Source of the DNA: a virus
Strand: one strand, 5' to 3'
DNA length: 24,685 nucleotides
IMG/VR virus record: IMGVR_UViG_3300020468_000069
Location: 1 to 24,685 of that record
Numbering within the stretch: the stretch's first letter is position 1; each line of letters begins with the position of its first letter. The notes beneath the pieces are model-generated. The model worked only from the letters and a program-made list of their open reading frames with translations, was not told where the DNA came from and did no database searches. The position numbers and the translations under genes are program-made. This document shows positions 1,842 to 24,582 of this stretch, one piece after another.

Positions 1842-4800
1842 GTTTCTAGCAACGGCTATTTCTATTGTACCTTCTCCATCAGAATCATGTGCTTCGATTG
1901 CTCTTCCAATTATAGCATATGCAGAATCTTTAGTCAAGTCTGCTTTTCTTGCTACACCTTTTGTTGAAGACGATACTAACCTATCACCTTTACTTATCTT
2001 GCCTTTAACCTTGCAAGGACAACGACCTACCATTGCAACTTTTGGATGGGTTTTATCTCTTGATCCTTTTTCTCCTGCACCACCATTTAAAACAAATCCT
2101 GGTTCAGTTGATATTACTCCAAATACATTTTCGTCATTGTCTTTAGTAGTTGCAGATATTTCTTTATCGCCACCCATTGCAACTACTGTACCTGGTGTTA
2201 ATTCTTCGTCTGCTTCGTATCTTTCTGCTAAGTCAGCTGTATATGTTGCTTGGAAAGTTGAACCAGCAGTTAATGACCAATCGCCTGTCACTGTACCAGT
2301 GTCTGAAGCAGATCCTGCACTAATATTTTTTACATAAATAGTTTTCCATCGCCTGTTAGTTGACCCAGTAGCACTACTTCCTGAATTTTGACTAGCAACT
2401 TCAGTTTCATAATCTGTTGCACCTAGATCATGTGTATTGTCACCATCTGGAAATATATCAGATCCTACATCGGATTTAAAATATGTCTTTCTAGTAAATT
2501 GATCCGAACTTGTATTTCCGTCACCTAAGTGAATATCACCACCATGACCTAATCTACAATCTGTAGCATGAACTTCAAATCGTTTTACTTGTCCTGTGCC
2601 AGCAGTATCAGCAACTTTAATATATTGATCTGCTTGCAAGCAAATGTTATTACCTGTAAATTCTGAATGACTTGATGCATATGGATATGCGGTACCTCCG
2701 GCAGTTCCTGCATGACCTGATGCTTTAAGATAAACATAAGATACTCCGCCTCCTGTTGCAGTTTGTAATGTAGCATATGATGCTCCGCCATTACTTCTAG
2801 CTTCGACGTTTACGTTTCCTGTTCCGTCTGTCGAAGAATCAGTACCGCTTTGAGCTCTAATTAAAATATCACCATCGCCTTTAGTACCTGCATTTGTAGC
2901 AACAATGTTTATTTTTGCTTTTGCAGCAGTACCACTAGCATGTGTATTTCTACTTAATATTGTCAATTCTTCTAACGAAGCATTTGGATTTTCTACACGA
3001 ACATTTCTTGTATATGTATCAATAAAATGTAAATGTTGTGTACCTAATGTCATTCCTCCGCCTTTATACGGAAATGTTTCTGAAGTAATGCCATGATCAT
3101 TATGACCATCCATTGCTGGATAAGCACCAACATATTTGTTATCACTATCTGCTACTGCAGAACCAGCAGTATTAGACGAACTTCTATCAGTGCTCGGCGT
3201 ATTTTCTAATTTAGTAGTGGCCGGTATATGTCCAGGATATGCACAAAACGCACCATTAAATTTAATTGCATTTATTTCTTTAAACGGTTTGGCTGATCTA
3301 TATCCAACTCCGGCAGTAGTAGTACCCATACTACTAAGGTAATGACCGTATTGATTTGAAAGATTAGTACAAGTTACATCTTGTTTACCGCCAGTTGCTA
3401 TGTAATCGGTTTGAGAAGCAGTTGTTGTATCTCTTGCTTCGCCGACTACTGCGGTATTAGGACCTGTTCCTGAATAATATTTTCCTTTAGTATATATAGT
3501 TCCGCCACCAATAACGCCTGTTGCGTTAACCGTTAAACCTACAAATCCTCCAGTTCCTGCAGCATCTTGAATAAGTAATCTAGGATTTTTCCATCCTATT
3601 GATCTGCCTTCAGGTAATGCAGTTAACACACCTTCGCTATTGTTAATTACATACACAGGTTCATCTAAAAATCCTGTATCGTTATTAGCACTACCCCATG
3701 CATTAGTAGTATGTCCTGAATTAGTTGTAGGTACTGTACTATAATTGTACCGATAAGGACCAGCAGATCCTTTTATGTAACCTACAGATGTACTAGATCC
3801 TGTTGCCCAAGATTTTGCTACTGTTTGGGATATGCCCGACGATCCGATACCATCAGTAGTAGTAGAACTATTTGTAGTCAACACCGCAGAATCTTTTCCA
3901 TCTACAGGAATAGCATCTCTATAAAAATGAAACTCACCTCTTATGATACGTTCATCTTGGTCTACTAAAATAAAATCTTTATCTGCATTATAAGGGTATG
4001 ACGCCGAATCTACATCTTGTGCAAATCCATTATATGTTGTAAGTTTACCGCCATTGGATCTTCCGACCAATGAAGAACTACTATGATCTCTATGATCACT
4101 AACAATGTCTGCTTTTACACCCTGTTCTGCCATTACTAGTCTAGCATCAAAGTTGGCTAGAGATACACCTGATCTTGTAATAGTGTCAGCTACCACATTA
4201 GGTTTATCTTTATTCGAGCTTTCTGCTTCGGTTAAGTCTGAATGAGCAAATGTTGATACTTTAAAATAATCTTGTCCATCAAAATCGTCTCCACCTGTTA
4301 CTGCGGTTGAAGCATTTCCTGTACCTGCACCGGCACTATCATCCCACATTAATGCGGCAGGATTTACATAATTACCGCTAGTTTTTCCTCTGTTAACCCA
4401 AAATCCTGAAACTCCAGTATATGCATTATTATCTAGATCACCACCTAATTGATGCTGACTACTGTTTAATTGAAATAGATTATCTTCAATTAGTAAATTA
4501 TTAGATTCAACTACAAGAGAACTTCCTGATACTGTATGAGTTCCTTTAACATGAACATTACCATTAACTTGAAGATTTTTTTCTATATGCACTCCGCCTT
4601 TAACTCTAAGAGCTCCATTTGGGTCGGCCCCTGAAGCAGAGTTTCCGATAGTTTGATCTCTTTCAAATGCTACTTCAACATAGCCTGCTAATCGTTTAAC
4701 TGCGGCAGTCGAAGTTGCAGTTGTGGTTAATGATCCACCTGAAGCAGAATTATATTCTGCTTTCCCTGTGTATGTACTTGAACTATTATCATCACCGCCT

Positions 4801-6429: not shown

Positions 6430-7062
6430 TTATGTTGCTACGTAATTAGTTCTTATTCTTATTGTATATAAGACTTGTATTTTTCTATTAGCAGACTTTT
6501 CCACAGGATGAAAAATAACATGACTTAACAATAGTCCTTGATTTCTACCATCTACTGATTTAGATTTTAATCCTATCTCATCAAAAATAAATTGACCATC
6601 GCTATTATCAACTGTATTCTGCGATACAATAGGCGAAGACAAATTAAAATTTGTATCAGATGATGCTGGTTCGTCATATGCTAATGTAGATGTAATGACT
6701 ATATCTGTATATGCTGATCCGTCAGCATATACAATTTCCATTTTATTATTTGCAGTATCATCGTTATCGGCATCTAATGTATCTATATTTTTAAAAAACT
6801 TATCTGCATATAAATCATCATTTGCTAAATTAACTTTAGGTTCTCTATATGAAATATTTCCTTGAGCATCTGTAATAGTCCCATCACTACCAAAATGCAT
6901 TTCGTATAAAGTAAAATTATCTTTATTACTTAAAGTATTAGCGATGCATCTACTCATATTTTCAGAATGTATTTTGTTAGGTTTATCTACAAAAACCTCA
7001 CCAGTATCTACGTCAAAAATTTTAACGTGTCCTTGCATGTCTATATTAATATTACTTTTCAT
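6430..7062 (-). CDS. Conserved small virion / baseplate-associated protein (210 aa)
   Basis: This 210-residue acidic protein lies between the giant baseplate-position gene and the tail fibre. It starts MKSNINIDMQGHVKIFDVDTG. A segment at about 38-62 (SRCIANTLSNKDNFTLYEMHFGSDGT) and the C-terminal FDEIGLKS, LLLSHVIFHPVEKSANRKI and YTIRIRT look like a conserved beta-structured family found beside tail fibre genes in marine T4-like phages. I infer a baseplate-to-fibre connector or another baseplate component, in the location T4 uses for gp8-gp10, although I see no direct similarity to those. The Shine-Dalgarno AAGG lies 10 bases before the ATG. A perfect TATAAATA late octamer overlaps the end of the preceding gene, so this gene and those downstream may have their own late transcript. 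Confidence 0.75.
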   Translation of the reverse strand: MKSNINIDMQGHVKIFDVDTGEVFVDKPNKIHSENMSRCIANTLSNKDNFTLYEMHFGSDGTITDAQGNISYREPKVNLANDDLYADKFFKNIDTLDADNDDTANNKMEIVYADGSAYTDIVITSTLAYDEPASSDTNFNLSSPIVSQNTVDNSDGQFIFDEIGLKSKSVDGRNQGLLLSHVIFHPVEKSANRKIQVLYTIRIRTNYVAT

Positions 7063-7081: not shown

Positions 7082-7089
7082 TATTTATA
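7082..7089 (-). promoter_or_regulatory. Perfect T4-type late promoter octamer before the 210-aa gene
   Basis: On the minus strand the sequence is TATAAATATTAATAAGG, then 10 bases to the ATG at 7062. TATAAATA is the canonical T4 late -10 element. It overlaps the TAA stop of the giant gene (7085-7087). A start near 7075 would give a short leader that keeps the AAGG ribosome site. It would allow fibre genes to be transcribed separately from the very long upstream message. Confidence 0.7.
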
Positions 7090-10000
7090 TGGTTCCTTTT
7101 GTCACAGCTAAGCCTTGTATTGGACTAGTACCAGCAATAGTAGTATTAGCTGAAGGATTAAACGCCGGATAACCTAACGGATCTGTTGCTAATGTTAAGT
7201 TCATATCAGTACCTGCTTTTACAACAGAAGCAGAATTTGCATGTGCTTGTGGAGTTGTACCATCGACTCCTCGTGTGCATCCTGTTAATGTATTTGTTGA
7301 TACTCCTGTAAATGTAATTCTTTCAGATCCTATAACTATTGTACCTGTATTTCCTGTTTCTTTAACTGCACTTGCCGAAGTTACCGGAATAGACGTTGCA
7401 GTTGCCGTAATTGCACTAGTTAATGTTGTTTTTTTAGTATTAATAATAGCTTCATATTTTCTTGTACCTGCATCTGTAATAAAAATTCTAAAAGCTCTAG
7501 ATGCAGCGGCTTCTGTACTACCACTTGTGTTTGTTTGCACTCGTATATCTAATACTTCTGTTGCAGTAGTTTTAGATTCTTCTATTATGGTTCTAGCATC
7601 TGCAATAGTTTCTATTTTACTATGATACGGTTTTGTATCATTTAAAAATTCTAAAATATCATCTTCACTACCTATATCAAATGTTTTAGGTGTTAAATTT
7701 AATGGTGTACTTCTTGTTAATTGTAGCACAGATGATTTTGCAATCCAATCTATGTTTTCCTGTTCACTATAAATATATCTTATCATCGCAAAGAAAAATT
7801 CTTTGTAAAATGATTGATATGCTCCAACAAATACATCCAATCGTAATGCATCTAAAATATTTAAAAATTCATTATTATAATTTTTATCCCAGCCGGTTAT
7901 GTCCCATTCTACGGCATCCCAGCCTCCATCTTCGTCATTAATATTATACAATGTTTCTTTAATTTGTATAGTACCATTTTGTTTACCAGTTTTTAACCAT
8001 TGGTTAGATACCCACTGATAAAATGCCCATGCTCCTGCTCCGTCGTCGTCATCTACTCTTACAGTTGTATACAATGATGTGTTTACATCGTATAATTCAT
8101 TTCTTGTGTTTACTGTTTGTTGAGTAACTGTAGATGAATTAATAGTATAATCAGGACGGAACCAGTCGGCATATACCCAATAATCTTGAGGTGTGTATGT
8201 AGTATTGCCCTTATTAAATGTTCCACCTAATCTTTTTCTCCAATTAAGTTGAGAATCGCTTAAATTTATTGTTAATAATAATTCATTTACTTTTTGTACT
8301 ACAACTCGTATTGCTTTTAATCTATCTTTAATTAAACTTTGTTTATATGGACGTATTTGACTACCATATCTAAATAATTCATTTAATCTTAAATCTGGCA
8401 CTCTGTTAGGAGCTTCATATGATATTGTATTATCATTCAAATATTCATATGTTCCTGTTAATAATTGAGTCCATGGTTGTCTGGAAAAGTTTCCTATTTC
8501 ATTAAATGAGGCAAACTGATCATGAGCAACAATCGTAGAAGCAGTAGTAGTTACAGGATGATTGGTGCCTCTTGTAACTAGTAATCTATCTCCTGTTGAT
8601 ACATTTGTAAATTCAATATCATCAACAAAAATTATTACATCACTACTAGGTGAAGATTGTAAATCTATTTTTAAAAATACGGATTGATATCTATCACTTT
8701 GTGCAACTACCTCTAATTGAAGGCCGTATAATTCATTTGCAGCAACCGATGTTATAGCAATGGTGTCGCTGGTCTCTACTGTAAATCCTGAAAAATTAGT
8801 TTGAGACGAACTTGCATGTCCGTACGATAATGTCGCAGATCCTGATCCTGACCAAGCAGAAGAAGATCTAAATTTAATCTTAATTAAATGTTTTACACCA
8901 GCAGTTATACCTGCATACGCAGGTAATGTTATGTCTATTTTTTGTCCTACATATCCAACTTGTGTACCAGATGATATAGTAAATTTACCAGAATATGTTC
9001 CGTTTAATACTTCACCACTAGTTGATGTAATCGCTAATGCACCTGCTTGTGTAGACCAATAAGTTGTTGCATTGGTATTAAAATCAAAATTTTGTAAGTA
9101 ATTAGTATCAGACAAAAATTTTTCAGTTGCATAACGATCATAATATTTTAATTCTACAACTTCGTTTACTATTTTTGCATATGATTGAACATAACCTGAT
9201 CCTTTTCTTGCGGCATTCATTGTTATAGCAGTAATAGAACCATTAGTTAACGTAACGTCTGCATCTATAACAGTTGCTCTAGTACCTGTCGAAGTTTCGG
9301 GATATGAAATGTATACACTTGGTTTAGATTGATATCCTGAGCCGCCTCGAACTATTGTAATACTATCAATTACTCCTCCTACTATATTTGGAAAAGCAAA
9401 TGCAGTAATATCTTCTAGAGGTAATCCTAAAGTATTACCTACCGGTGGATCTATTGTAACAACAGCTCCAAAAGTTAAATTATTTGCTATTGGACTTATT
9501 CTTATTTCAGGATAATGTTTTGCCCAATGACTAGTAGAAGTTAATGCATTTCCTGTATTGCTATTTGCAAGTGAAATATATTGTATTTTATTTGTAGCAT
9601 CATTTACTATGGCATCTTTTGCATATGTTGTTCCGCCGGCGTAATTAGCAATAGTAGGCAAACTTAACATTAATCTTGCCGATTCTAATTCTATTGATAT
9701 TGCATTATTATGCAAATTACCACTATAAGAAACAACAGAATTGGCTGGGTATTCTAAATCTCCGCTCCAATTATATGATACTGTATTAATACTACCACCG
9801 ACTGCTGTTTCTTGTCCGACTAATCCTAATGTTGTTTTTGTTTGATCGAATCCCAATATACTTTCGTGCATTCTGTTTGCTAATATTCTAGGAACAACCG
9901 AACTATCATTTTCTCTTAGTGTTAGCCATTCTTTATGTGTTTGTCCGACACTATTTGTAAAATTAATTTGAACTGTTGAATTTTTATTAAGAATTTTTTC

Positions 10001-13000
10001 TAAATTACCGCTTATTAAACTCGATGTACCTGCAGGAGATGCCCAAAAAATTCCCGACTCTGTAGGATTATCTATGTATTGTGCAACTTCTAATACACTA
10101 AAATTTCTATATGGGTTTGATTTAGGTACTGTTCTTTTATTTTTAACCCAAAAATAATAGTATGTAACTTCAGTACCTGTATAAGGATTATATTCTGTAT
10201 CTTGGGACCAATAATAATATATTTGATCATCTATAATTTTATAATATGCTTCACCTGATGCTACTTCACCATCTATAACAAATTCACCATTTGCTAAAGT
10301 AGACCATTCGTCTGGAGTAACTGTACTTTTAGTCCATTCGTAAATATCTATACTCGATCCTGGAAATTTTGCTCCCCAATTTTTAAACGAATAGTCTAAA
10401 TCTAATTTTTGTTCATAGTCCAAATATCTTACAGTAGATAAATCCCACCATGTTTCACCAACTTTTTCTTTATCCCAATATCTTTCATCAACAACTTCTT
10501 TAGTTTCTTCTGTTGAATTGCTATATAATGCTTGATCATATCTAGTAGAAGAATCTATTTCAACTTCTGCTACTCCGGGTATAATGCCTTTAAATGGGTC
10601 CCAAACTTCTGCCTTACCTAATTCTTTATTATCAATATAATCATATATTAAAACATTTGATATTTGATTTGAATCGGTTTTTGTTTGTTGTTGTCTTTTT
10701 ACAGACCAATTTGTGTTAGATAAATCATATGAATAAACACCATAACCTAAACCTGTTGTGTTCTTAAATACAATTTCTAACGGTTGCCCGATAACCCATT
10801 GTGATATATTAGTTGGTGTAAATGTTATAGTTGTGCCTGAAACTGTCCATGCAACACTTCCTCCTGTTGATGCAGGCAACAGAGTTCTACCAGTTCCTAT
10901 ATAAACAGTTATGTCGCTGGCACTTGATACTGAATATGATAGTGTATATGCAGTTTGTTCAATTCCTGAACTAAGATACTGGCCACCTGTTGTTGTAGTA
11001 TCTGATTGATATTTTAATGTTAAAGATTGTACTCTATAATAAGAATCTGCATATGCAACCCAACCATCATTCCAAGCATATTTTGAATCTGTTACTGCAT
11101 TATATAAATCATCTGTGCCTAAAAATCTGTGCGATCTAATAACAAAACATTTACAATATTGTTCATTTACTGCAATATATTGATCTATATAAAACTGCTT
11201 GTCGCTTCTTGAACCACAAGTAGCACAATCAGAACCGCTCGGAAAACCAGTTACTTTATGTATACCATTTAATCCTGCATTATTTTCCGCACCTACTATA
11301 AAAACATAATCACCAATACTTAAAGAATGAGATTGATTTAATTTTACTAATGCTTCGTTTCCAGTATCATACCCTGGACAAACCAATTCAACATCAAGAT
11401 TCTTATCATGCAACCCTACTACATCCCAACTTTGAGTATTTTCATCATCTGCAAACCAAGCAGTAAATAACCCATTCTCTGATACTGCTGTCCAAGGATT
11501 AGGATCGCTCGAACTTGCTCTATATTGAAATGCTGAAATATAAATAAAGTCATTATCTGCAGGTAACTTACTATATGGCACAGCAGTAGGACCAAATGTA
11601 AATGCATATGTGTATTCACCTAATCCATCTACTTTTGTATTAGTACTATCTCTAGATTGCATAGGATAATATGTTGTATTAAAATCACCTATTCTAACTT
11701 CTACTCCTAAATTACTAGTAGCAAATGGATCTGTTGCGGCAGTTAATTTTGTAGTGTTATCATATGAAAATACACACTTGTCTATATGTAATCCTGCAAC
11801 ATATAAATCTCCCGTCTTTGTCCAAAATCCTGTTTCAGTAGAAGGATTTTTATTTAAATTATTAGCCGTAGTTGTTGCTTTATATTCTGCTCCTTCATAT
11901 ACAACATAATCAGGATTAGTAGAAGAATTGTCCGTTCCATCATAAGCAAAATTAGCATTCCATGTAGGAAAGTCGTTATGTGAGCTACCTGCTACTCCGA
12001 CTGCTACCCATTTAGTTGCATCTGTTCCTGGTGTTACATTTGAAAATGAACTTGCAATAGATCTATAATTTGTAGTTGTACCAGAATCTGTATGAGATAC
12101 ATAAGCATTAATACCATATGTTGTACCGTTATTGTATGCGGTAAAAACAGTAGATGAATAATATGTAGTTCTAAGAGCATTGTTAATACCCCTAAAACTT
12201 TGTTTAGCAGATGTTATTACAGAGTTAGTCCATCTTTGTCCTTTATGCCGTACAAAAGATCCGATAGCATATGATCTATTATCTCTCCATCCGTCTGTTT
12301 GTGTTAAATTATATATACTTGAGAGAGCTCCTTGATCTTTAACATCTTTGTATGTGTCATACAGTTTAGGTAAATCTTTCTTATTAAACATAGTATAAGT
12401 AACTTCGTCTAATTTAAGATAACCTGCATTGGGTAAATTTTTCTCGTCAGTTTCTATTTCTTCAAAATTAGATAAATCTCTATCTAAAGATCCTTGTGTA
12501 AAAGATATAGGAGGATCATTTGCCGGTTCTTCTAACCATCTAGAATCACCTTTTAACATACTAATCGTAGCATCGTAATCTATATCTCTGGCTTGGCCTG
12601 AAAATATAGCATCAAATCGAATTAATTGAGGATTTGTTTTGATGTCGCTTTGTTTTAAAGTAAATTCTTGTGTTTGCTGAGTAGGTAAAGGACCAAACTC
12701 TCCTAACCTAAACATCCATTCTTCTTCTAAGTCAATATCAACACTTGATTCTAATAAAAATGTACTTCGTATTAATCGATTAAAACTTTCTGGCGTTCCT
12801 TTTTTATGAAGTAGTCCTTTCATAAATTGAAATTGCACATCATCGGATAATCGCATATTACGCAAGAACTGTTTCTTCTCATACCCAATATTTTTTCTTG
12901 CAACCCCTGACAGATTTGAATCTGTTAAGTGCTGGGTTTCATCAAATAATTCATAATTTACATTTGATACCGACTTATCAAAATTTTCAAATATTGTATC

Positions 13001-16000
13001 GTTGTTGACTATGTATCCAGGTGCATAAAATGTGCCGTTCCAATTGGATGTTTTTTGATAATCTATTTTTAATCTTAATTTTTCTTCGCCTAATAACGGA
13101 GAATAAACTATATCATTAAAAATTGTTGTATTATCTAGTATCAATAGATGTTCGTAATCACAAACAACTAATATAGCACAATAAATTGCTTTATCATCAT
13201 TTTTGCATTTTACAGTAACTTCTTTATACTGTCTATCTACACTTATCTCTGAAAGATTTAATAAATTTTTATCTTTATCTAAATATGCACTACCATATTC
13301 ATCTTCATTATTTTTTAAATAACCATGAGCTAATGTTAAAGTCATGGATTTACCAACAGGACTTAATTGTACCGATGTATTAACATCCCAATTTGATTCT
13401 GCCCATATTACGAATTGATTAGCTGCAAAATTCCAATTTTGTATATTATTATTTGCATCAACATTATTAAAAACGAAACCAACCGATTCTAAATATTTTT
13501 CATATTCTAACAGAAACCAATAAACATCCTGTATATTATTAAATGTAGTTCCATAATTAACTTTTACAGGAGATGTTCCGTAATTAACATATCTAATTAA
13601 ATTTGTTTTTCCTATTGTTACTGCTCTTCCTGAAACCTTTACAGAAGGTAATACATTAAAATATGGTTCGTTGTTATGCCAACCATTAATTGTATACCCA
13701 GTCGACGATTTAATAATTTCTACTCCACTATAAACTATTTTTTTATACGGAGATGACTTATGTAATTTTAATGAAATATTATCTGCTGGTATAAAATTAT
13801 CAGATAGTTCTGATTGTAGACTATCTGCTAATAATGATATATTATTTTTATTAGAATAGCCTTGTATTTTATACATTTGTTTTGAATTTAACTGTCGTAT
13901 TTGTCTAGCAAAATCTTTATAAATTTCATTACCTAGAAACATCAATCTATCAACCATTAATTGTTGAATTCCTAAAACTCTTCGGGTTAAATTGGTTGTG
14001 TCTACTTCATTATGAATGTATAATTCATTTGTATTATGTCGTTTTTTTGTTTTTTCAGATATTTTTTGTAATTCGTGCTTACTATCTACTATTTCAATTA
14101 TACCTCCCATGCCTGAATGATTACCACAAGAATAATATAACTGACTTATAGCAGTACCTTTAGGTATTATTAATTGTGTATATCTGTCACCTGTGTTATT
14201 TGATTTAAAACTTTGTTCATAATTAGAAGAACCGGCAAATGTATTATAATCAGTTGAACCTATTTTCCAAACTTGTTGTGTTCCTTGGCTATATATAGAA
14301 CCTTCAGTATCCCTTATTGTAGTAAGGTACAACGGATGATTACTAGTGTATGTTAATGACCCGGCATTACTTGAATCTGTTTGATCAAAAATATATGTTT
14401 TACCTTGTTCTAATTTTAAAGTTTTCTGTGGGATTCCGTCTATGTAAAATCGATTCTGGGTTCCGTCATTTGCTACTGTTACTTTCAAGGTAGTTGAAGC
14501 ATCAGGTCCATCGTTTATTTTATCTAAAACATCATAATTGTCTTCTAAATATTTTCCAGGATTAGAAGAATGTAAAAATTTATTTTCTACATAAGGGAAG
14601 ATTGAACTACGCAACCATACAGTTTCTATAGGACTTCCGTCACCAAATTTAAACGCAGCTTTTGCTTCGTTGGCAGTAGGAGAAGTAAGACTCCATGTAT
14701 CTGGATCTTGTAACGTAACAGTTGCATCGGTTCCTCCTGCTGTACCGGCGCCTGTAACAGGAAAGGTTGCACCAGGTCTAGCAACATTTATATCCTGTAT
14801 TATTGTCGTTGTAGGTTCGGATATAATTCCTTTTTGTAATGCAGATTCTAATGCGGCTTTTTTTGTTGCGTTTGCCCAACAATTATCATTTGTAGTTTTA
14901 GTTGTGGGACTACCATATCTTGCATCCCACCAACTAGGTTTTTCGACAAAACCTAACATTTCCCAAGGATGTGTATGTGGTCTATCTGTATCAAAATAAT
15001 GTCTATAAATACCTCTCCAATATCCTATACCTTCTGACTGTGTTGATGAGTAATTATGTGTAAATTTATTATTAGCATCATACGAACTATTTGTTAATGT
15101 TGTAATACCTTTACTAACCCTATATGAATTAAAATAATTATCATAAAAATTATTTTGCTCAGTTTTTGTATAAGGTGTGGTTCTATATTTTCCGGGTATA
15201 TAAGTTAAATCTTTTCTTTTATTTTTAAAGGAAGATTGTATATGATCGTATATTCTATTTTCTAATTCAAACAATGCTTTATCTCTAACATCTGTTAAAG
15301 AAGGAGTTAAGTCACTGTCTACAGTTGTATTAAACGAAACCGTTTTAGAACCATCGTGGCCTTCTATAATAACAACTTGCCTAGAACCTGTATTATCTAA
15401 ATAATATGTAGGTTTAATACACGATGTAATACCTAACTTCGTTAATGTAGGTGGTATAAAACTTAATCCTTGATCAATGCTAACTTTTATAACAACTTTA
15501 CCTGAACTGACTGCACTATTCAATGTAATTTTATTAGTTGTTGATGTAGTATCTAATGTATATAGATCACTTGTTAAATATGTTTCAACCCCGTTAGTAT
15601 CAATGGTATAGACATATACATGATTTTTATATTGATTAGTTCTTGTAATATTTCTAGGTAAATTAAAATTAGACGTACTACTAGAAACACTATATGTTTT
15701 TTCAACCAAGTTAAAATAGTACATCATATCACTATTTGCAAATGGAAATGTATTATTCTTACCTAAATTAATATCATAAAGAGCTTGATCAATTAATCCG
15801 CTAATAGTAGGACTTGACGCCATGCTTTTGTTTAATTGTTCTATTTTTTGAACAAATTTTTTCTTAAAAACATTATAAGAATCAGATACATATTCCAATG
15901 CTAATAATACATCGTAATCTTCGTTACTTAATGTAAAACCTGTTTTTAATAATGAAGATAATTGTTGATTTATTATTCCACCAAATCGTTTTGTTTTATC

Positions 16001-18913
16001 TAAATTTCTATAATTATTAGAACCAAAAGAACTGCCTGTTCTGCCTGGTTGTTTTTCTATTACGTCTATAAAATGATTAAACAATTCTGAGTATTGAATA
16101 TATTGTACTTCACTATTATTTGAATTATTTTTTATCGAATTAGAAACATCATATGTCCATTCATCTGTTGCACTAGTATCTGTAGTAAAAAATTTTACAT
16201 CAACTATATCGCCTACTGCTAATATATCTTCATTATTTGATATTGCTTGGGCATAAGACGAATTACCAGTTTTATAAGGTATTACAATATTCTGTCCATT
16301 AAAAGTATAATGAACATTCCTTAATAATTTATTACCATTATGAAATACTTCAGGCCATCCTTGTTCTAACACTTGATCTATAATTATAATTTTACCTGTC
16401 GAACTACCAGGAGCAGTATAATATAAAATGCTATTTGTTTCTGCGGCATCAACTGCAAATGTTGTTTTTGTTCCTGATGTACTAATACCGGAAGTAAAAG
16501 ATGATCCTGCTTTATTTTGAAATGCTAATGAGGTAGTGCCATTTGTTACATCAAATGTATATGTTTTCCCTCGTGCCAAATATAATGTAGGATTAATACC
16601 TGTTAATTTTTCATAACCATATGCAGAATCTAAATGAAATTCCCATCCAGTTGTATTTGCTTTAAGCCAAAAATCTCTTTCAGGTTCATAATTTGTTGTG
16701 CCTAAATCTACACTTAAATCTGCAATAGCAGATGTAACTTCCTGAGTGACAGTAATTGGAGTTCTTACTTGTTTGTAACTCTGATGCCAGCAATTATCAT
16801 AATAATGTTTTCCGTCACTAACATCATATTTTTGTAGGTAATACAACCCTTTTATATCTACACCTGTAGTAAACGTATTATATTGATATGTTGTTTGTAT
16901 AACAGAATTATTAAAAATTAAATTGCTTGTATTTGTTGTTGTTATATAAGACGACGATGAATACGACAACGGAAATTTTAAATAATCATCATTTTTACGA
17001 GTAGCTGAAGTTGTATCTTCTAGATACTCAAATACGGTTGACCCTGTAAAATCTGTTTCTTTATAATGAGACAGTGGTTGATGTTTGGCATCGTATAATT
17101 CATATAACGGATGTTTATTCGGTATTTCTTTTTCTTGAGTTGCGGACCATGTATCTAACTTTGCATTGTAATAATAATCTATTCCTTTAACTAATGTAGC
17201 AGAAGAAGTTTGCCATTTTGTTGCATCTTCGCCTGGTGTTACGCCTTTATTATTATTGACTAGTGAGCTAAAGTATACATTTTTAAATTTTACAATATTA
17301 CCAGTAGAATAAGATTTATTCCAATCATATAATGTAGGACCATTCATAATAGTAACCACATCACCATGATTTGGTACTGCGGTCGATCGGCTATTGTCAT
17401 TTGTAATTGCTGTCAAAGCATAACTGTTACCAACTGTACAAATTTGGTTGTTTATGCCCGTTGATGCATTTGTAATTAATACTCTATCACCTACTTGAAC
17501 CGTGTAACCATTATGAACTAGATTACTTGCTAGATCGGATCCCGGGTCCGATAATGTTGAAATTACCATAGCAACCGGTTTTCTACTTTCGATACCGTGA
17601 CTATATAAACGTAAATCTTTTTCCCAACAAATAATAGGTCGTTGTGCATAATCACTATCATCTAATGTTTGACCTAATGTTGTAGAACTAGATGGAGATG
17701 CCACACTATCTCCTATTTTAAAAGTTGATGCAACACCTATAAAAGTATTAACTGCTTTTACTGTATCAATATGATACCAATTATTTGTTCGAGACCATGT
17801 ATTATTATCTCTTGCACCTCTGTCAATTGTTAGATATTCGTGCCTCCAATGAACATCTGTGTTTTGTCCGTTTTTAAAAGGTGTTACTTTTTGCCCACCG
17901 ACTACTAATAAATGTACACCTGCACTTGCGCCATAACCTCCGCCACCTGTTGCAGATATAGTAGTACTAACTTTTCCATCGGTACCTATTGAACCTGAGG
18001 CAATAGCATGTGTTGAAGGTGTACCACTAGAATCATATATATTAAAAAATGGCTTATAAACATATCCTGTGCCTTGCGTGGCACCGGCACTTATAGAAAT
18101 AGCATTAACCGCATTACTACTTGTAGTAACAGCACCTGTTGCTATTGTTTGATTTGCTACGCCATGTGCATATGGAGTAATAGATGTTAAATTTGATTGC
18201 CATGCCGTATCCGAAGCACTATATGTGCTCTCTACAATTAATCTTATTTTAGATCCGACGCCAGTAACTAAGTAAACATTATTATCATTAGAAAATGTGA
18301 TTCGCATACCATTTTCTAATTTAATGGTTCTACTACCATATTCTGTTTGAGCATCTGATGTAAATTGTGCTAATCCTTCTACTGCCGATGCAGTAGTTCC
18401 ATGAAGACCAAATATAGGTAATCCAAATGGTAACCATACATAATTATTCCAATTAATAAACATATCAAAATCAATTGGAGGTCTCCAGGAATAATTATTA
18501 TCTGCAAATAATTTATCTAAATTAGTTGTGTTTGAATCTAAAAATTTTAATTTATTAATTACATCACTATATGTATATGCAGATTCGTATTCTCCGGTAT
18601 CTGTTCGCTGACTTACTACACCTGGTTCTAATTGATAACGATTATCTAATGTGCTTCTACTAGGTAAATATGAGTCATCCACTGATGATCTAATTTTTCC
18701 TGTCTTCTTGCCGATATATCCTGATTTATTTTCAGAAACACCACTTTCAATCATAGGATCTAAAGTTGCATTTAAAAATTTTTTATTTGTATCGCTTTGA
18801 AAATATTCAGGTAACAAATCTGTTGAATATTTTTTTGATAAATTCCTATTAGTTGAACCTGGCGAAGTATTGTTAACTTGCTCTGTTTTTGCTTTGCTAG
18901 TAAAGTCAGCCAT
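7085..18913 (-). CDS. Giant modular baseplate/tail structural protein in the gp7 position (3942 aa)
   Basis: One uninterrupted frame fills nearly half the window. It follows gp6, where T4 has gp7 (about 1030 residues), so a baseplate wedge role is inferred from position and not from similarity. Visible modules, in order: GxGY repeats (about 255-341); a CBM5/12-like unit (524-571); a plastocyanin-like fold lacking metal ligands (775-850); a second plastocyanin-like unit with H1526, C1596, H1599 and M1602 (about 1490-1607); a conserved helical segment around LLHKKGTPESFNRLI (about 2010-2080); CBM5/12-like units (about 2253-2305 and 2313-2366); four cysteines C2563, C2566, C2587 and C2589; another CBM5/12-like unit (3088-3136); GxGY repeats (3178-3251); a CBM4/9-like jelly-roll (3268-3436); a conserved segment with FLNDTKPYHSKIET (about 3690-3790); and a terminal TTLTSAITATATSIPV to TGCTRGVDGTTPQAHA module. 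The start has AGGAAATTAA before ATG, 11 bases after the gp6 stop. No signal peptide or transmembrane segment was seen. Confidence 0.85.
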   Translation of the reverse strand: MADFTSKAKTEQVNNTSPGSTNRNLSKKYSTDLLPEYFQSDTNKKFLNATLDPMIESGVSENKSGYIGKKTGKIRSSVDDSYLPSRSTLDNRYQLEPGVVSQRTDTGEYESAYTYSDVINKLKFLDSNTTNLDKLFADNNYSWRPPIDFDMFINWNNYVWLPFGLPIFGLHGTTASAVEGLAQFTSDAQTEYGSRTIKLENGMRITFSNDNNVYLVTGVGSKIRLIVESTYSASDTAWQSNLTSITPYAHGVANQTIATGAVTTSSNAVNAISISAGATQGTGYVYKPFFNIYDSSGTPSTHAIASGSIGTDGKVSTTISATGGGGYGASAGVHLLVVGGQKVTPFKNGQNTDVHWRHEYLTIDRGARDNNTWSRTNNWYHIDTVKAVNTFIGVASTFKIGDSVASPSSSTTLGQTLDDSDYAQRPIICWEKDLRLYSHGIESRKPVAMVISTLSDPGSDLASNLVHNGYTVQVGDRVLITNASTGINNQICTVGNSYALTAITNDNSRSTAVPNHGDVVTIMNGPTLYDWNKSYSTGNIVKFKNVYFSSLVNNNKGVTPGEDATKWQTSSATLVKGIDYYYNAKLDTWSATQEKEIPNKHPLYELYDAKHQPLSHYKETDFTGSTVFEYLEDTTSATRKNDDYLKFPLSYSSSSYITTTNTSNLIFNNSVIQTTYQYNTFTTGVDIKGLYYLQKYDVSDGKHYYDNCWHQSYKQVRTPITVTQEVTSAIADLSVDLGTTNYEPERDFWLKANTTGWEFHLDSAYGYEKLTGINPTLYLARGKTYTFDVTNGTTSLAFQNKAGSSFTSGISTSGTKTTFAVDAAETNSILYYTAPGSSTGKIIIIDQVLEQGWPEVFHNGNKLLRNVHYTFNGQNIVIPYKTGNSSYAQAISNNEDILAVGDIVDVKFFTTDTSATDEWTYDVSNSIKNNSNNSEVQYIQYSELFNHFIDVIEKQPGRTGSSFGSNNYRNLDKTKRFGGIINQQLSSLLKTGFTLSNEDYDVLLALEYVSDSYNVFKKKFVQKIEQLNKSMASSPTISGLIDQALYDINLGKNNTFPFANSDMMYYFNLVEKTYSVSSSTSNFNLPRNITRTNQYKNHVYVYTIDTNGVETYLTSDLYTLDTTSTTNKITLNSAVSSGKVVIKVSIDQGLSFIPPTLTKLGITSCIKPTYYLDNTGSRQVVIIEGHDGSKTVSFNTTVDSDLTPSLTDVRDKALFELENRIYDHIQSSFKNKRKDLTYIPGKYRTTPYTKTEQNNFYDNYFNSYRVSKGITTLTNSSYDANNKFTHNYSSTQSEGIGYWRGIYRHYFDTDRPHTHPWEMLGFVEKPSWWDARYGSPTTKTTNDNCWANATKKAALESALQKGIISEPTTTIIQDINVARPGATFPVTGAGTAGGTDATVTLQDPDTWSLTSPTANEAKAAFKFGDGSPIETVWLRSSIFPYVENKFLHSSNPGKYLEDNYDVLDKINDGPDASTTLKVTVANDGTQNRFYIDGIPQKTLKLEQGKTYIFDQTDSSNAGSLTYTSNHPLYLTTIRDTEGSIYSQGTQQVWKIGSTDYNTFAGSSNYEQSFKSNNTGDRYTQLIIPKGTAISQLYYSCGNHSGMGGIIEIVDSKHELQKISEKTKKRHNTNELYIHNEVDTTNLTRRVLGIQQLMVDRLMFLGNEIYKDFARQIRQLNSKQMYKIQGYSNKNNISLLADSLQSELSDNFIPADNISLKLHKSSPYKKIVYSGVEIIKSSTGYTINGWHNNEPYFNVLPSVKVSGRAVTIGKTNLIRYVNYGTSPVKVNYGTTFNNIQDVYWFLLEYEKYLESVGFVFNNVDANNNIQNWNFAANQFVIWAESNWDVNTSVQLSPVGKSMTLTLAHGYLKNNEDEYGSAYLDKDKNLLNLSEISVDRQYKEVTVKCKNDDKAIYCAILVVCDYEHLLILDNTTIFNDIVYSPLLGEEKLRLKIDYQKTSNWNGTFYAPGYIVNNDTIFENFDKSVSNVNYELFDETQHLTDSNLSGVARKNIGYEKKQFLRNMRLSDDVQFQFMKGLLHKKGTPESFNRLIRSTFLLESSVDIDLEEEWMFRLGEFGPLPTQQTQEFTLKQSDIKTNPQLIRFDAIFSGQARDIDYDATISMLKGDSRWLEEPANDPPISFTQGSLDRDLSNFEEIETDEKNLPNAGYLKLDEVTYTMFNKKDLPKLYDTYKDVKDQGALSSIYNLTQTDGWRDNRSYAIGSFVRHKGQRWTNSVITSAKQSFRGINNALRTTYYSSTVFTAYNNGTTYGINAYVSHTDSGTTTNYRSIASSFSNVTPGTDATKWVAVGVAGSSHNDFPTWNANFAYDGTDNSSTNPDYVVYEGAEYKATTTANNLNKNPSTETGFWTKTGDLYVAGLHIDKCVFSYDNTTKLTAATDPFATSNLGVEVRIGDFNTTYYPMQSRDSTNTKVDGLGEYTYAFTFGPTAVPYSKLPADNDFIYISAFQYRASSSDPNPWTAVSENGLFTAWFADDENTQSWDVVGLHDKNLDVELVCPGYDTGNEALVKLNQSHSLSIGDYVFIVGAENNAGLNGIHKVTGFPSGSDCATCGSRSDKQFYIDQYIAVNEQYCKCFVIRSHRFLGTDDLYNAVTDSKYAWNDGWVAYADSYYRVQSLTLKYQSDTTTTGGQYLSSGIEQTAYTLSYSVSSASDITVYIGTGRTLLPASTGGSVAWTVSGTTITFTPTNISQWVIGQPLEIVFKNTTGLGYGVYSYDLSNTNWSVKRQQQTKTDSNQISNVLIYDYIDNKELGKAEVWDPFKGIIPGVAEVEIDSSTRYDQALYSNSTEETKEVVDERYWDKEKVGETWWDLSTVRYLDYEQKLDLDYSFKNWGAKFPGSSIDIYEWTKSTVTPDEWSTLANGEFVIDGEVASGEAYYKIIDDQIYYYWSQDTEYNPYTGTEVTYYYFWVKNKRTVPKSNPYRNFSVLEVAQYIDNPTESGIFWASPAGTSSLISGNLEKILNKNSTVQINFTNSVGQTHKEWLTLRENDSSVVPRILANRMHESILGFDQTKTTLGLVGQETAVGGSINTVSYNWSGDLEYPANSVVSYSGNLHNNAISIELESARLMLSLPTIANYAGGTTYAKDAIVNDATNKIQYISLANSNTGNALTSTSHWAKHYPEIRISPIANNLTFGAVVTIDPPVGNTLGLPLEDITAFAFPNIVGGVIDSITIVRGGSGYQSKPSVYISYPETSTGTRATVIDADVTLTNGSITAITMNAARKGSGYVQSYAKIVNEVVELKYYDRYATEKFLSDTNYLQNFDFNTNATTYWSTQAGALAITSTSGEVLNGTYSGKFTISSGTQVGYVGQKIDITLPAYAGITAGVKHLIKIKFRSSSAWSGSGSATLSYGHASSSQTNFSGFTVETSDTIAITSVAANELYGLQLEVVAQSDRYQSVFLKIDLQSSPSSDVIIFVDDIEFTNVSTGDRLLVTRGTNHPVTTTASTIVAHDQFASFNEIGNFSRQPWTQLLTGTYEYLNDNTISYEAPNRVPDLRLNELFRYGSQIRPYKQSLIKDRLKAIRVVVQKVNELLLTINLSDSQLNWRKRLGGTFNKGNTTYTPQDYWVYADWFRPDYTINSSTVTQQTVNTRNELYDVNTSLYTTVRVDDDDGAGAWAFYQWVSNQWLKTGKQNGTIQIKETLYNINDEDGGWDAVEWDITGWDKNYNNEFLNILDALRLDVFVGAYQSFYKEFFFAMIRYIYSEQENIDWIAKSSVLQLTRSTPLNLTPKTFDIGSEDDILEFLNDTKPYHSKIETIADARTIIEESKTTATEVLDIRVQTNTSGSTEAAASRAFRIFITDAGTRKYEAIINTKKTTLTSAITATATSIPVTSASAVKETGNTGTIVIGSERITFTGVSTNTLTGCTRGVDGTTPQAHANSASVVKAGTDMNLTLATDPLGYPAFNPSANTTIAGTSPIQGLAVTKGTI

Positions 18914-18927
18914 TTAATTTCCTATTA
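18914..18927 (-). promoter_or_regulatory. Compact stop / ribosome-site junction (gp6 to giant gene)
   Basis: On the minus strand this reads TAA, TAGGAAATTAA, then ATG. The 11-base spacer matches the one at 1828-1838 at nine of eleven positions. It fixes the start of the giant gene at 18913. Confidence 0.75.
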
Positions 18928-21900
18928 GTAATAACTAGAACCGCCGCCACCCGAACCACTGCTACCACTGCCACTACTAGACGATGAAGTAGAACTAGTA
19001 GATGTTGTTACACCAGTAATTGAAGTTGTTCCGGATGCCGTATCTAATGTTCCGCCTGCAATTCTAATATTAGATTCTGTATACGACGAAACTATGTCTA
19101 TATCAGACACTTTCGCGGCACTTATAAAAATTTCATGCTCGTTTGGAGTTACTTGAAACATGTTACCAAATCTAGAACCACCGTCATTAGGTACTATAAC
19201 AATAGACGAAACAATACCTATCATTTTTCGATGTACATAACCGGCCAATTCTGTAAAATAAAATGTTTCTCCAAAGGCCCAATTAGCAGGATCAAAATAT
19301 TCGTCTATATAACCTACAATTAATGCCTTTATTTCATTATCTGTATATGACGTAGTAGAATTTTTAACTACCTTAAATTTTGCTTGCAATGCATAGTCTG
19401 CTTCTGCACCAAATAGTATTTTCATTTCACAAGGTTTGTAAATAATTGTATCGGACGAAGTTTTTGAACTTTCAATTGATGTAAACATATTTTTTAAATC
19501 TTCTGTTGTATGAGGTAACGGCTTAAAATCTGTACGCCTGTCATTTTTTAACCAATTTGAAAAAGAAGTATAATATGTATTTGTTAAGACAAATGTATCA
19601 ATTATATTTGTAACCGCTGGATCTATTCTTGTTTCTTCACTAGCGGCATGTGTCCATTTAAAATTAAGATTTGATCTTCCGGTATAACTTTTATATGTTA
19701 ATGTTCTAACATGTTCCCAATATGTAGTATTAGTTGGTAAACTTCCTAAATTATTATTTGCCAATGATTTATATTCAGAACCTTCATATTCGACTTTATC
19801 GTTTATTGAATATACTTGAGCTGAAGACCAACTTATAACTGCACTAGGAGTAGCAGGTGTCCAATATGTAGTATTAGTTGGTACATTGCCTGTTGATGTT
19901 TGTAGTGCCTTATAATAATTTCCGTTGTATATTACAACATCATTTACTCCGTAAGATGCAACAGCATTATATTCTAATGCTAAAGGCGGAGGATCTGTCA
20001 TTAATGTTTTATATGTGTAATTACCGTCTTGAACATCTGTTATAAAAATAGTATTAGAACCAACAATAGAATCAAATGCAAACGGATCGTCAATTACAGA
20101 ATCTTTATTATCGTCTGCAAATTTAAGCAATACTCTTCGAGGATCGGTATATCCGTCGTCATATGTATAATATCCTGATATATCAAATTTATAGTCTCCA
20201 GTAAATAACGTGGAGCCTGTGCCTCCACCAGTAGTTGTAAGCGGTACAGAATTTAATTTTAAAATATTAATAGCATCTATAACAGATTTTTTTGATAATT
20301 TGCTTACTTTATTTTCTAATCGTTGATTATAAAACCTTACGTTGCTGACAGAACCAAAATTAAATTTAACCGATCTTGCTAAAAATACCCATTGCGATGC
20401 TTCTTTTTCTATTCTTAACATCCAGCTATGATCACCGTTACTACCTGTGCCGGCAGTTCCAAGATTAAATGCAGTATCTCTAGAAGCACCTAAATTTGCT
20501 ACAGGCACTACTGTCCATGCCATTGTTGTATGATTATAATATAAACCAAATGAATTATTTGCATCTAATTGTGTAGTTATATTTGTTCTTTCGGTTGATG
20601 TAAATTTTTTATTAAATGCAGGTGCTATTCTTTTAATTCTATAACCGGAAGGAATATTTCTAGATAATTGTATCGTACCTAGTCCTTCGGCAGTTTTACC
20701 TGTATAAGCCAATGTGGTATCTGTAACACCTCTACCATCTCCCGAAACACTAACTATGCTTGCCCATTCCGTTTTAGAAGAAGCAGTATAAGCATTAGTA
20801 CCGGCGGTATCGGGCTGAACAAACTCAATGTTAGCTCCTGGTACTAAATATTTTCCTATTGCATCGGTTGTATATGTTCCTAAACTTGCGGTTGTTGCAT
20901 CATCTTGAAAATAACCTGTTGACATTTTATTTGTGCTAGTTACCCTCGACCATGTCCATATGTTACTTGTTTCTGCTTGCAAATAATTAGAAGCAATATA
21001 GCTACCAGAATATTTTTGATAATAAAAATTTTCAACTTCTTTTTCATTCAAATATGATTCTATGTATTGTTCTATAATAGATGATGAAGTCAATGTCGAG
21101 GTAGTAGATAAAGTTGATCGTAATAAAGAATCTTCTAAATAAATGTACCCATCGTCACCAAATATAGTTAAATCTTTATATGTACCAGTCGGATCATTAA
21201 TATCAACATAACGTGTATGTCCACTATGTATTCTGTTTGTACTTTTTATCTTTTTAATATTTGTAGATGCTTGTAATGGATATACTGCATAATCTTCAGC
21301 TGTAACCATTCTATCTTGAGTAGCATATACTTGTGGTGCATTTGTTTGTATAGACGTTAAAGACTCTGTTTCTGTGCTATTTTGAACTGTTTCTTGTAAA
21401 TCCAAAACAACAGTTAAATCGTATAATTGATTGTCGTTTCTACTAAAATAAGGAATAACAATGTTTATATTTTGCATGTCTTCTGGTCTAATAATATACG
21501 ATTCATTGTTTCCTGTTCTGTACCAAGTTCTAATAACATCTTTAGGAGCATTGCCAAATCTTCCATCTGCAAACTTAATAGATATTTGATCGTCGACTCT
21601 TGTAACAACTTCAAATATATTTCTTAAACTATTATCAATAGAATTAAAAATAACATTTGATCCTGTAACAACAGGTACTTTTGTCCAACTTGCAGATACT
21701 GATCCTAACTGGGTCACACTTTGAACCCATACATCGTCGTTTACTACATCGTTTACATTAATATCTATAACTTGATTTTCAATAGGAGATGTGATCAAAA
21801 CATCTTTAAATGCCAATGTTCCTTGTTTAAAATAAAAGAAAAATCCTGTATTTTCACTTGCATTGCCTTTACCATCATTTAGATAAACACATTTAAATGA

Positions 21901-22593
21901 TGCATTAGGATCAGGATAAGGTTCTACATAACCAGCAGTATTTAAATTAACATTGCATACCTCAAATCCGGTTGACACTCCGTTAACATTAGCATTAAAT
22001 GAATAAACAACATCTTGCCCTGTCAACGAATTTAGAGTATAAATTTCTGTTTTAATACCATTATATGTTCCTGAATTAAATGGAGTACCAAACTGATTTG
22101 TAGATGTTAGCACAGAATTTACAATTAAAAGAAATTGTTCATAAGCATTTGCATTTGTAGCATCGTTCCATAATACTTCTACATTAGAAAGATTATTGCC
22201 GTCCGAATCTATTAATATTTCTGTAGTTTTTACTGATTTTACTTTAGCTACTCCTTTTGAATTAATTGATCGTTTTGGATTATATCCTAAAAATCTAGCC
22301 AATCGTAACACTGATTCTCTAGAAGTAGCAGTTTCCATAAAATTTTCACGAGAAGAAAAATCGATTCTAAATGCTAGACTATGTCCTAAATATGCAATAA
22401 GATCTATTAAACTTACAAATTCTGAAGATTGAATCCAATCGTTATAATCTTCTGGATAATTTAATCTAATGTAATCGACCATTGCCGATTTAATTGTATC
22501 AAAATCGTATGCTTTAAAATTTGCTTGGGCAAACGATTGATATACCGCCGTGTAATCTTCTGCGGCAAATAACACATCTTGTCTTGTTGCCAT
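18925..22593 (-). CDS. 6: Baseplate wedge protein gp6, enlarged (1222 aa)
   Basis: T4 gp6 forms the inner ring of the baseplate and holds the wedges together. Three segments support the identification. Residues 57-106 contain SSEFVSLIDLIAYLGHSLAF and ENFMETATSRESVLRLARFL. Residues about 428-475 contain VTAEDYAVYPLQ, STNRIHSGHTRYVDINDPTG and FGDDGYIY. Residues about 1067-1165 contain SYTDNEIKALIVGYIDEYF, WAFGETFYFTELAGYVHRK, VSSIVIVPNDGGSRFGNMF and HEIFISAA. T4 gp6 is about 660 residues. The extra length lies mainly between the second and third segments and includes two tandem CBM5/12-like units (about 873-916 and 921-963). The protein ends in an unusual Ser/Gly tail (about 1188-1222) finishing in GGGGSSYY. 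The Shine-Dalgarno TAGGAA uses the gp25 stop codon as its first three bases. Confidence 0.95.
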   Translation of the reverse strand: MATRQDVLFAAEDYTAVYQSFAQANFKAYDFDTIKSAMVDYIRLNYPEDYNDWIQSSEFVSLIDLIAYLGHSLAFRIDFSSRENFMETATSRESVLRLARFLGYNPKRSINSKGVAKVKSVKTTEILIDSDGNNLSNVEVLWNDATNANAYEQFLLIVNSVLTSTNQFGTPFNSGTYNGIKTEIYTLNSLTGQDVVYSFNANVNGVSTGFEVCNVNLNTAGYVEPYPDPNASFKCVYLNDGKGNASENTGFFFYFKQGTLAFKDVLITSPIENQVIDINVNDVVNDDVWVQSVTQLGSVSASWTKVPVVTGSNVIFNSIDNSLRNIFEVVTRVDDQISIKFADGRFGNAPKDVIRTWYRTGNNESYIIRPEDMQNINIVIPYFSRNDNQLYDLTVVLDLQETVQNSTETESLTSIQTNAPQVYATQDRMVTAEDYAVYPLQASTNIKKIKSTNRIHSGHTRYVDINDPTGTYKDLTIFGDDGYIYLEDSLLRSTLSTTSTLTSSSIIEQYIESYLNEKEVENFYYQKYSGSYIASNYLQAETSNIWTWSRVTSTNKMSTGYFQDDATTASLGTYTTDAIGKYLVPGANIEFVQPDTAGTNAYTASSKTEWASIVSVSGDGRGVTDTTLAYTGKTAEGLGTIQLSRNIPSGYRIKRIAPAFNKKFTSTERTNITTQLDANNSFGLYYNHTTMAWTVVPVANLGASRDTAFNLGTAGTGSNGDHSWMLRIEKEASQWVFLARSVKFNFGSVSNVRFYNQRLENKVSKLSKKSVIDAINILKLNSVPLTTTGGGTGSTLFTGDYKFDISGYYTYDDGYTDPRRVLLKFADDNKDSVIDDPFAFDSIVGSNTIFITDVQDGNYTYKTLMTDPPPLALEYNAVASYGVNDVVIYNGNYYKALQTSTGNVPTNTTYWTPATPSAVISWSSAQVYSINDKVEYEGSEYKSLANNNLGSLPTNTTYWEHVRTLTYKSYTGRSNLNFKWTHAASEETRIDPAVTNIIDTFVLTNTYYTSFSNWLKNDRRTDFKPLPHTTEDLKNMFTSIESSKTSSDTIIYKPCEMKILFGAEADYALQAKFKVVKNSTTSYTDNEIKALIVGYIDEYFDPANWAFGETFYFTELAGYVHRKMIGIVSSIVIVPNDGGSRFGNMFQVTPNEHEIFISAAKVSDIDIVSSYTESNIRIAGGTLDTASGTTSITGVTTSTSSTSSSSSGSGSSGSGGGGSSYY
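19717..19739. repeat. 23-bp perfect direct repeat, copy 1 (inside gp6)
   Basis: The bases from ccaatatgta to agttggta are identical to 19861-19883. The two copies are 144 bases apart, exactly 48 codons and in frame. Each encodes the LPTNTTYW or VPTNTTYW end of a CBM5/12-like unit, so the repeat marks a tandem duplication or gene-conversion tract. Confidence 0.9.
19861..19883. repeat. 23-bp perfect direct repeat, copy 2 (inside gp6)
   Basis: This is the second copy of the repeat at 19717-19739. It encodes the VPTNTTYW end of the upstream CBM5/12-like unit of gp6. The rest of the two units has diverged at DNA level, so the identity is confined to this tract. Confidence 0.9.
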
Positions 22594-22606
22594 TTAGTTA
22601 TTCCTA
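22594..22606 (-). promoter_or_regulatory. Stop codon reused in ribosome site (gp25 to gp6)
   Basis: On the minus strand this reads TAGGAATAACTAA followed by ATG. The TAG stop of gp25 is the first half of the TAGGAA ribosome site of gp6, a variant of the two junctions at 1828 and 18914. It supports the gp6 start at 22593. Confidence 0.72.
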
Positions 22607-22975
22607 TTCTGCTTCAGATAAGTTTCGATCAAAATTAATAGATAAGATATCTTCTTGATCAGTTGGTGTATATCTTAATCTCATCTGAACGCTAATTGCA
22701 TTTTGATTACTATAAGTAACCACTTCTCGTAAATTCCATCTAGGATCTTGTGATACAATATCAACACAATCTTCTTTTACTGCATCTTCAACTGTATCAT
22801 CATAAGGTTCAAATAATAAATCCCATATTAAAGAACCATACGAAGGATCCATTAATCTTTCACCTTTTTTAGTGTTAAAATGATTTGTTAAATCTTGTTT
22901 GGCAAGGTCCATATCTTTTAATTTCCTTACTGGTGTTTTAGAAGAATATCCCTTGAATATAACTTTTGTTGCCAT
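22604..22975 (-). CDS. 25: Baseplate wedge protein gp25 (lysozyme-like / TssE family)
   Basis: This 123-residue protein matches the T4 gp25 family (132 residues in T4), a baseplate wedge subunit related to P2 gpW and the type VI secretion protein TssE, which nucleates sheath assembly. Diagnostic residues are NTKKGERLMDPSYGSLIWDL (35-54), LLFEPYDDTVEDA (53-65) and QDPRW (76-80), where DPR occupies the place of the family's EPR signature. The C-terminal beta part includes VQMRLRYTPT. It is the first gene of the leftward operon. The ATG at 22975 is preceded by GGAAC at a spacing of about five bases, and a late-type CTAAATA element lies 19 bases upstream. Its role in the old T4 literature as a lysozyme is not supported by the family's structural work. 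Confidence 0.96.
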   Translation of the reverse strand: MATKVIFKGYSSKTPVRKLKDMDLAKQDLTNHFNTKKGERLMDPSYGSLIWDLLFEPYDDTVEDAVKEDCVDIVSQDPRWNLREVVTYSNQNAISVQMRLRYTPTDQEDILSINFDRNLSEAE

Positions 22976-24413: not shown

Positions 24414-24423
24414 ATACGGTATC

Positions 24424-24582
24424 ATGACTGAAGCACAAGTAGAAGATCATTTAGATGAACGACAAGAGCTAGAGCAGGAACGAGATTATTACAAGGATAG
24501 GTGCACAGAGTTAACACGGCAATTAGAAATTGCTAATAAAGAATTAAAAAGAATAGAAGATACTTATTTCAGAAACAACTAA
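24424..24582 (+). CDS. Very small coiled-coil protein (52 aa)
   Basis: An ATG at 24424 opens a 52-codon frame ending in TAA at 24580-24582. The product is almost entirely charged and helical (VEDHLDERQELEQERDYY, ELTRQLEIANKELKRIED), consistent with a coiled coil. No good Shine-Dalgarno is visible. The gap from the preceding stop is 10 bases. The stop overlaps the start of the PRPP synthetase gene by one base (TAATG), which is a typical coupled arrangement and supports both genes. It is similar in style, though not obviously in sequence, to the 72- and 81-residue neighbours. Function is unknown. Confidence 0.7.
   Translation: MTEAQVEDHLDERQELEQERDYYKDRCTELTRQLEIANKELKRIEDTYFRNN

Follow-up and report, generated by a model that had tools for sequence, protein, structure and literature searches.

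Here we describe a giant protein of 3942 residues, encoded directly after the genes for gp25 and a gp6-like protein in a viral DNA, which we take to be, with a probability of roughly 70%, the gp7 counterpart, in a wide sense of the term, of the RaK2-type jumbo phage baseplate. The DNA analysed, called the window throughout, is a stretch of 24,685 nucleotides, positions 1 to 24,685 of the IMG/VR record IMGVR_UViG_3300020468_000069. This reading is supported because one conserved block of the giant, which holds a KGT motif, aligns in register with the core of gp7 in a way that only one of 400 shuffles equalled, and because T4-type gp7 was not found in seven complete relatives. With it, a large and widespread family of jumbo-phage giants, hitherto unassigned, gains a function that can be put to the test. 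The genes on which the argument turns are these:

22604..22975, minus strand: gp25, the sheath initiator, 123 aa (phrog_43, E 5e-18)
18925..22593, minus strand: gp6-like wedge protein, 1222 aa (phrog_10646, E 0), with CBM5/12 repeats
7085..18913, minus strand: the giant, a candidate wedge protein in the gp7 slot, 3942 aa (phrog_10938 family)
6430..7062, minus strand: a 210-aa neighbour, a possible partner of the giant (phrog_11259)

Reading along the minus strand, the order is gp25, the gp6-like gene and then the giant. The frame of the giant opens with an ATG and has its sole stop at its end; since the other two minus-strand frames over the same stretch contain 328 and 513 stops per 3942 codons, a frame left open over this length is not a matter of chance. 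The giant is a real, intact protein, with a calculated mass of 438.8 kDa compared with 119.2 kDa for T4 gp7. The initial annotation had described an unbroken 3942-residue frame following gp25 and gp6 in the slot of gp7, which is what we find, and had proposed that selection maintains it, with which the differences from the two closest relatives agree, as most of them affect the third base of a codon (0.45, compared with 0.26-0.29 for the second). At 1222 residues the gp6-like protein likewise exceeds its T4 equivalent, which has 660, and its CBM5/12 match (E 2.6e-7) exceeds the Pfam cut-off.

For all its length, the giant is an ordinary, middle-sized member of a large known family. A profile search matches it to phrog_10938 along the protein, in four stretches, with E 8.9e-293, and tblastn against 50,697 phage records gave matches in 60 of them for the C-terminal 2343 residues and in 63 for the N-terminal 2000. 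Among viral contigs, relatives are encoded by at least 572 of at least 599 matched stretches, the best 80 loci of which make up the viral relatives studied here; 49 of the 80 are closed at both ends and encode 2193 to 6778 aa, with 46 of the 49 reaching at least 3376 aa. The closest among the matches listed share 58% (L014, which is cut by a contig end) and 53% (L015) of aligned residues with the giant. Because it belongs to phrog_10938 and has very many related giants in large phages, the giant is not unusual. The exceptional size first attributed to it does not stand, given at least 572 listed relatives, many of them longer and closed ones extending to 6778 aa, and given the giant proteins annotated in the gp7 slot of cyanophages.

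Seven relatives come from named phages: RaK2 (3326 aa), CBB (CBB_236, 3340 aa), 121Q (gene 582, 3323 aa), PA5oct (gp355, 3857 aa), Atu_ph07 (gp180, 4449 aa), Vibrio 2.275.O (3771 aa) and SCTP-2 (gene 140, 3807 aa). These RaK2-type phrog_10938 giants are homologous to the window giant along its length, at 25-29% identity, and share its slot, with the order gp25-gp6-giant present in six of the seven (RaK2, CBB, 121Q, PA5oct, Atu_ph07 and Vibrio 2.275.O). The exception is SCTP-2, whose giant lies approximately 92 kb from gp6, and in 121Q one additional gene separates gp25 from gp6. The gene before gp6, which is unnamed in some records, or in 121Q the gene before the additional one, was compared by blastp with the gp25 of the window, and it proved to be gp25 in all seven, with E values from 5e-29 to 2e-9. 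Where the giants differ is in their inserts, which vary in kind and place.

When the eight giants are aligned, 2299 of the 3942 window residues have a counterpart in six or all seven of the relatives, and these conserved stretches alternate with poorly shared ones, such as residues 201-350, 751-800, 1501-1600 and 2201-2300. Three blocks (N-terminal, KGT and C-terminal) were built iteratively from 88 giants, and a further conserved block was traced among the viral relatives with residues 2745-3030. The conserved blocks and the more distinct inserts are placed as follows:

18419..18841, minus strand: N-terminal conserved block, residues 25-165, with the LPEY segment (80 relatives used)
17210..17329, minus strand: CBM5/12-like repeat, residues 529-568 approximately (below the Pfam cut-off)
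14069..14446, minus strand: plastocyanin-like insert, residues 1490-1615, HP...CxxHxxM (relatives by tblastn)
12575..12964, minus strand: KGT block, residues 1984-2113 (84 of 87 other giants used)
12758..12826, minus strand: KGT motif, residues 2030-2052, between two predicted helices, at low confidence
9833..10681, minus strand: conserved block, residues 2745-3027 (matched in 64 of the 80 viral relatives)
8603..8908, minus strand: beta-sandwich insert, CBM4/9-like, residues 3336-3437 approximately (below the Pfam cut-off; Foldseek 1gui)
7547..8107, minus strand: C-terminal conserved block, residues 3603-3789 (63 relatives used; no link to gp7)

Conserved segments had been expected near residues 2010-2080 and 3690-3790, and both sit inside blocks recovered here, the first in 1984-2113 (84 of 87 giants) and the second in 3603-3789 (63 relatives). 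Judging from the alignment, the architecture looks like module exchange on a conserved backbone.

It is the KGT block that links the giant to gp7. All six T4-type gp7 proteins and all seven cyanophage-type gp7-slot proteins compared contain an FYxxKG-type motif, KG(T/I/V/S) (five of the six and six of the seven under a stricter pattern), and a KG motif is also found in the gp7 of P-HM2. In the eight named giants the motif lies inside the KGT block every time, and the strict pattern occurs anywhere in the protein in 31 of the 80 viral giants. When aligned by hhalign with a profile of the T4/cyanophage gp7 core, the KGT block fell in register with a score of 22.8 (E 0.0028); one of 400 column shuffles was as good, the reversed profile scored 9.1, and windows that miss the motif, taken from residues 1600-2200 and 2745-3830, scored 15.5 at most. 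Once P-HM2 had been included and five rows, Melnitz-like or duplicates, removed, the resulting set of 13 gp7-slot sequences gave E 0.0022. The probability that hhalign itself assigns to the link is 10-13%, which is weak in absolute terms. The same block aligns with the KGT of P2 gpI across 14 columns (score 16.4). With a gp7 KGT model, 58 giants had a match of any kind, and in 24 of them the best spot fell on the KGT block of the giant itself, where approximately 2.7 would be expected, a rough expectation given that the giants are related and the rows not independent. T4 gp7, for its part, matches two families of cyanophage type at the KG motif, phrog_2885 (4179 positions, E 1.3e-4) and phrog_17744 (E 3.6e-4). 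In a first hhalign comparison of the three blocks with 15 targets, the KGT block met T4-type gp7 at the wrong place (E 0.34) and the cyanophage alignment at the right place (E 0.026, the best of the 15 for this block), and it fell on the motif in five of seven single cyanophage sequences.

The two outer blocks fared differently. Towards the N-terminus, the LPE segment falls in register with gp7, with 12 of 200 shuffles as good, or 8 of 400 without the misplaced AS-yj row, in a comparison that left out two T4-type and four cyanophage proteins lacking the anchor; as a sequence link to gp7 this motif is suggestive. The SYxV...HPxG motif at the C-terminus of T4-type and cyanophage proteins left no sign in the giants (94 of 200 shuffles as good, with two cyanophage proteins lacking the anchor left out), and it is doubtful that such a motif is necessary, since XM1 gp17 has only 242 residues. 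A best match of the C-terminal block to residues 210-286 of T4 gp7 (E 0.0058) was rejected; no motif lies there. Of the two conserved segments first named, residues 2010-2080, which align in register, show a likeness to gp7, and no tie to gp7 was established for residues 3690-3790.

Comparisons over whole proteins gave no signal between the eight giants and the S-PM2 giant plus six gp7 proteins (hhalign), nor any profile match of the giant to phrog_964, the family of T4 gp7, and by these measures the giant stands outside the T4 gp7 sequence family. The initial annotation had counted a separate gp7 homologue elsewhere in the genome as an argument against its reading; with the T4-type gp7 alignment, none appeared in G000, the assembly containing the window, in the seven complete relatives or in S-PM2, while T4 was found as the control. 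A shorter gp7 KGT model, applied at E<=10 to 11 genomes or records, found T4 and S-PM2 and missed the giants' genomes as well as P2 gpI, so that little weight attaches to its silence.

Giants in this slot have precedents. The gp7-slot proteins compared, with lengths taken from record coordinates where the sequence read ends inside the gene, have 896 aa (Methylophilales phage Melnitz-1), 1915, 3048, 3515, 4107, 4225, 4454 and 6076 aa; those of T4-like cyanophages span 1915-6076 aa, and the 4454-aa protein of P-HM2 was deposited as 'gp7'. P-HM2 gp7, S-PM2d081 (3048 aa) and syn9 gp101 (6076 aa) share with the window giant the slot after gp6, giant size and a KG(T/S) motif, and P-HM2 gp7 also has a plastocyanin-like module in common with it. 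Unlike the RaK2-type relatives, the S-PM2 giant is without sequence homology along its length, and the motif, which lies near residue 200 in cyanophages (near 700 in syn9), is near residue 2038 in the window giant. T4 gp7 occupies the same slot after gp6, with its KG motif in register and an LPE-type segment that is suggestive; it differs in its length of 1032 aa, in giving no whole-profile match and in its C-terminal motif, for which the giants yielded no match. In Vibrio phage XM1, the 242-aa gp17 is the reported ortholog of T4 gp7, (gp16)2-gp17 is the reported counterpart of T4 (gp6)2-gp7, and the stretches 80-106 and 201-242 of gp17, unresolved, are reported to hold the tail spikes (PMC10457771). 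XM1 gp17 is sixteen times smaller than the giant, and on its published description it offers a precedent for gp7 as a docking scaffold.

If the giant is gp7 in this wide sense, its gp7-like core would consist of the N-terminal LPEY segment and the KGT motif at 2030-2052, with the blocks 2745-3027 and 3603-3789 as additional conserved parts. By analogy with T4 and XM1, core and blocks would pair with two gp6-like copies to form each wedge, while gp25 would start the sheath as it does in those phages. The long beta-rich stretches inserted between core blocks would then project from the wedge, and may form a thick outer layer for docking fibres or contacting the host surface or its glycans. The portions consulted of the literature, including PMC10253068, PMC3622015, PMC5259590, PMC6102473, PMC3037559, PMC9700779, PMC7247149, PMC10966104 and PMC10457771, nowhere call a RaK2-type giant gp7, which does not prove that it is never so called.

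The giant might instead be a protein of the baseplate periphery that docks fibres and follows gp6 without being homologous to gp7, with another protein, such as the 210-aa neighbour, as the third partner of the wedge. The lack of a whole-protein gp7 match and of a credible fold match would suit such a role, as would the neighbour's relatives in 60 phage records, a number equal to that for the C-terminal half of the giant. Yet we consider it unlikely, for it has to contend with the in-register KGT block (1/400) and with cyanophage gp7-slot giants that carry the KG motif, and the only match of the proposed third partner is phrog_11259, annotated as of unknown function. In Salmonella phage Munch, the relative of the 210-aa neighbour lies approximately 10 kb from the giant and on the opposite strand. 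The downstream genes of the window also encode, beyond this neighbour, proteins of 1526 and 556 aa.

That the giant is a head, neck or packaging protein coded beside baseplate genes by chance is very improbable. PHROG does file phrog_10938 under head and packaging, and the SCTP-2 giant lies away from gp6, but the baseplate gene order holds in six of the seven named relatives, the KGT block resembles gp7, and the same category is given to phrog_4406 and phrog_701, cyanophage gp7-slot families that match proteins between gp6 and gp8. The 'head and packaging' label of phrog_10938 should probably read baseplate wedge.

Relatives of the giant appear among virion proteins. The CBB giant, CBB_236, is listed as one, with the values 21 and 7.72 (PMC5259590), which on our own reading are peptides and percent coverage, and the database record of PA5oct marks its giant ESI-MS/MS. 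In phAPEC6, gp245 is reported at 381.88 kDa, with 17 peptides, and adjoins the 131-kDa baseplate wedge gp244 (PMC7247149); from its mass and place, gp245 would be the giant of that phage.

The inserts are less easily named than the core. The giant had been described as a mosaic of small beta modules between conserved segments, and its conserved core does alternate with variable modules, but the CBM names given to some of these fall under the Pfam cut-offs. The full-length protein has no Pfam family at E<=0.1; as cut-out fragments, the CBM_5_12 repeat reaches E 0.03 (14.8 bits, cut-off 26.2) and the CBM_4_9 insert E 0.019 (15.8 bits, cut-off 25.9). For the latter, Foldseek ranks 1gui, a CBM4, fourth, with a probability of 0.96 and E 0.088, in a part where model confidence is low. 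The GxGY pattern, as G[SGTA]GY, occurs four times in the giant.

The module called plastocyanin-like from the start has no Pfam match, and its fragment matches the PDB only at E 1 or worse, but it does have tblastn relatives (E<=0.01) in 87 of 50,697 phage records, P-HM2 gp7 among them; 83 of the 87 are named cyanophage, Synechococcus or Prochlorococcus phage and two are Pelagibacter phage. Type-1 copper sites are formed by His, Cys, His and Met. The form CxxHx(2-4)M is present in one of the eight named giants, that of the window, and in 10 of the 80 viral giants, at differing places. Altogether 54 copies of the module were found in 46 of 96 proteins, and since 12 of the 54 have CxxHx(2-4)M, most copies are without the ligand pattern. 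One could imagine gp7 in T4-like and jumbo phages as an open insertion platform of 242 to more than 6000 residues, with exchangeable surface modules threaded onto it, of which some plastocyanin-like ones, with the full His...CysxxHisxxMet set, may bind copper and so give a baseplate with metal centres, but we hold this to be rather far-fetched.

AlphaFold2 models were made for residues 1600-2200 (mean pLDDT 75.8) and 2745-3830 (58.6), and the first places the KG between two predicted helices, in a low-confidence part. Foldseek found no solved structure at E<=0.001 and no credible baseplate match for either model; a contractile-injection baseplate chain, 9gtp_1G, came seventh for residues 1600-2200 (E 0.12, probability 0.03). 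The best VIA-align scores, Z 6.2 for a pilin and 6.1 for a phage lambda-type tail tip, with other phage tail-tip chains lower, involve single beta domains and are tied with unrelated proteins, so they may reflect common arrangements. A phmmer search of the giant against the PDB returned nothing at E<=1.

The assembly G000, with a completeness of 79%, comprises 29 contigs and 1.18 Mb in all, and SecY lies on a contig other than that of the phage; because of this the phage contig was probably co-binned with a bacterium. The window differs from that contig (C12) at seven sites in the part compared, two of them synonymous and in the giant; the other five, at 24094-24150, fall in none of the six ORFs examined. 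It also extends 436 bases past the end of C12 (in the region 24094-24685); with this overhang and the five differing sites, the window and assembly sequences are not identical. Contig C3 of the same assembly carries, at approximately 58438-79581 (L007, L106), another phage of this type, a diverged one: its gp25 match is weaker, the place of gp6 is taken by a protein of 1186 aa, and its giant has 4024 aa, with 25-36% identity to the window giant in the matched pieces. On C12, past the baseplate genes (L006, G000:C12:1-19800), there is a tight run of mostly minus-strand and often overlapping genes; among ten tested, three encode radical SAM proteins, one a HAD/nucleotidyltransferase and one a 2OG-Fe(II) oxygenase, as if, going by these gene families, the run served to make a modified sugar or metabolite.
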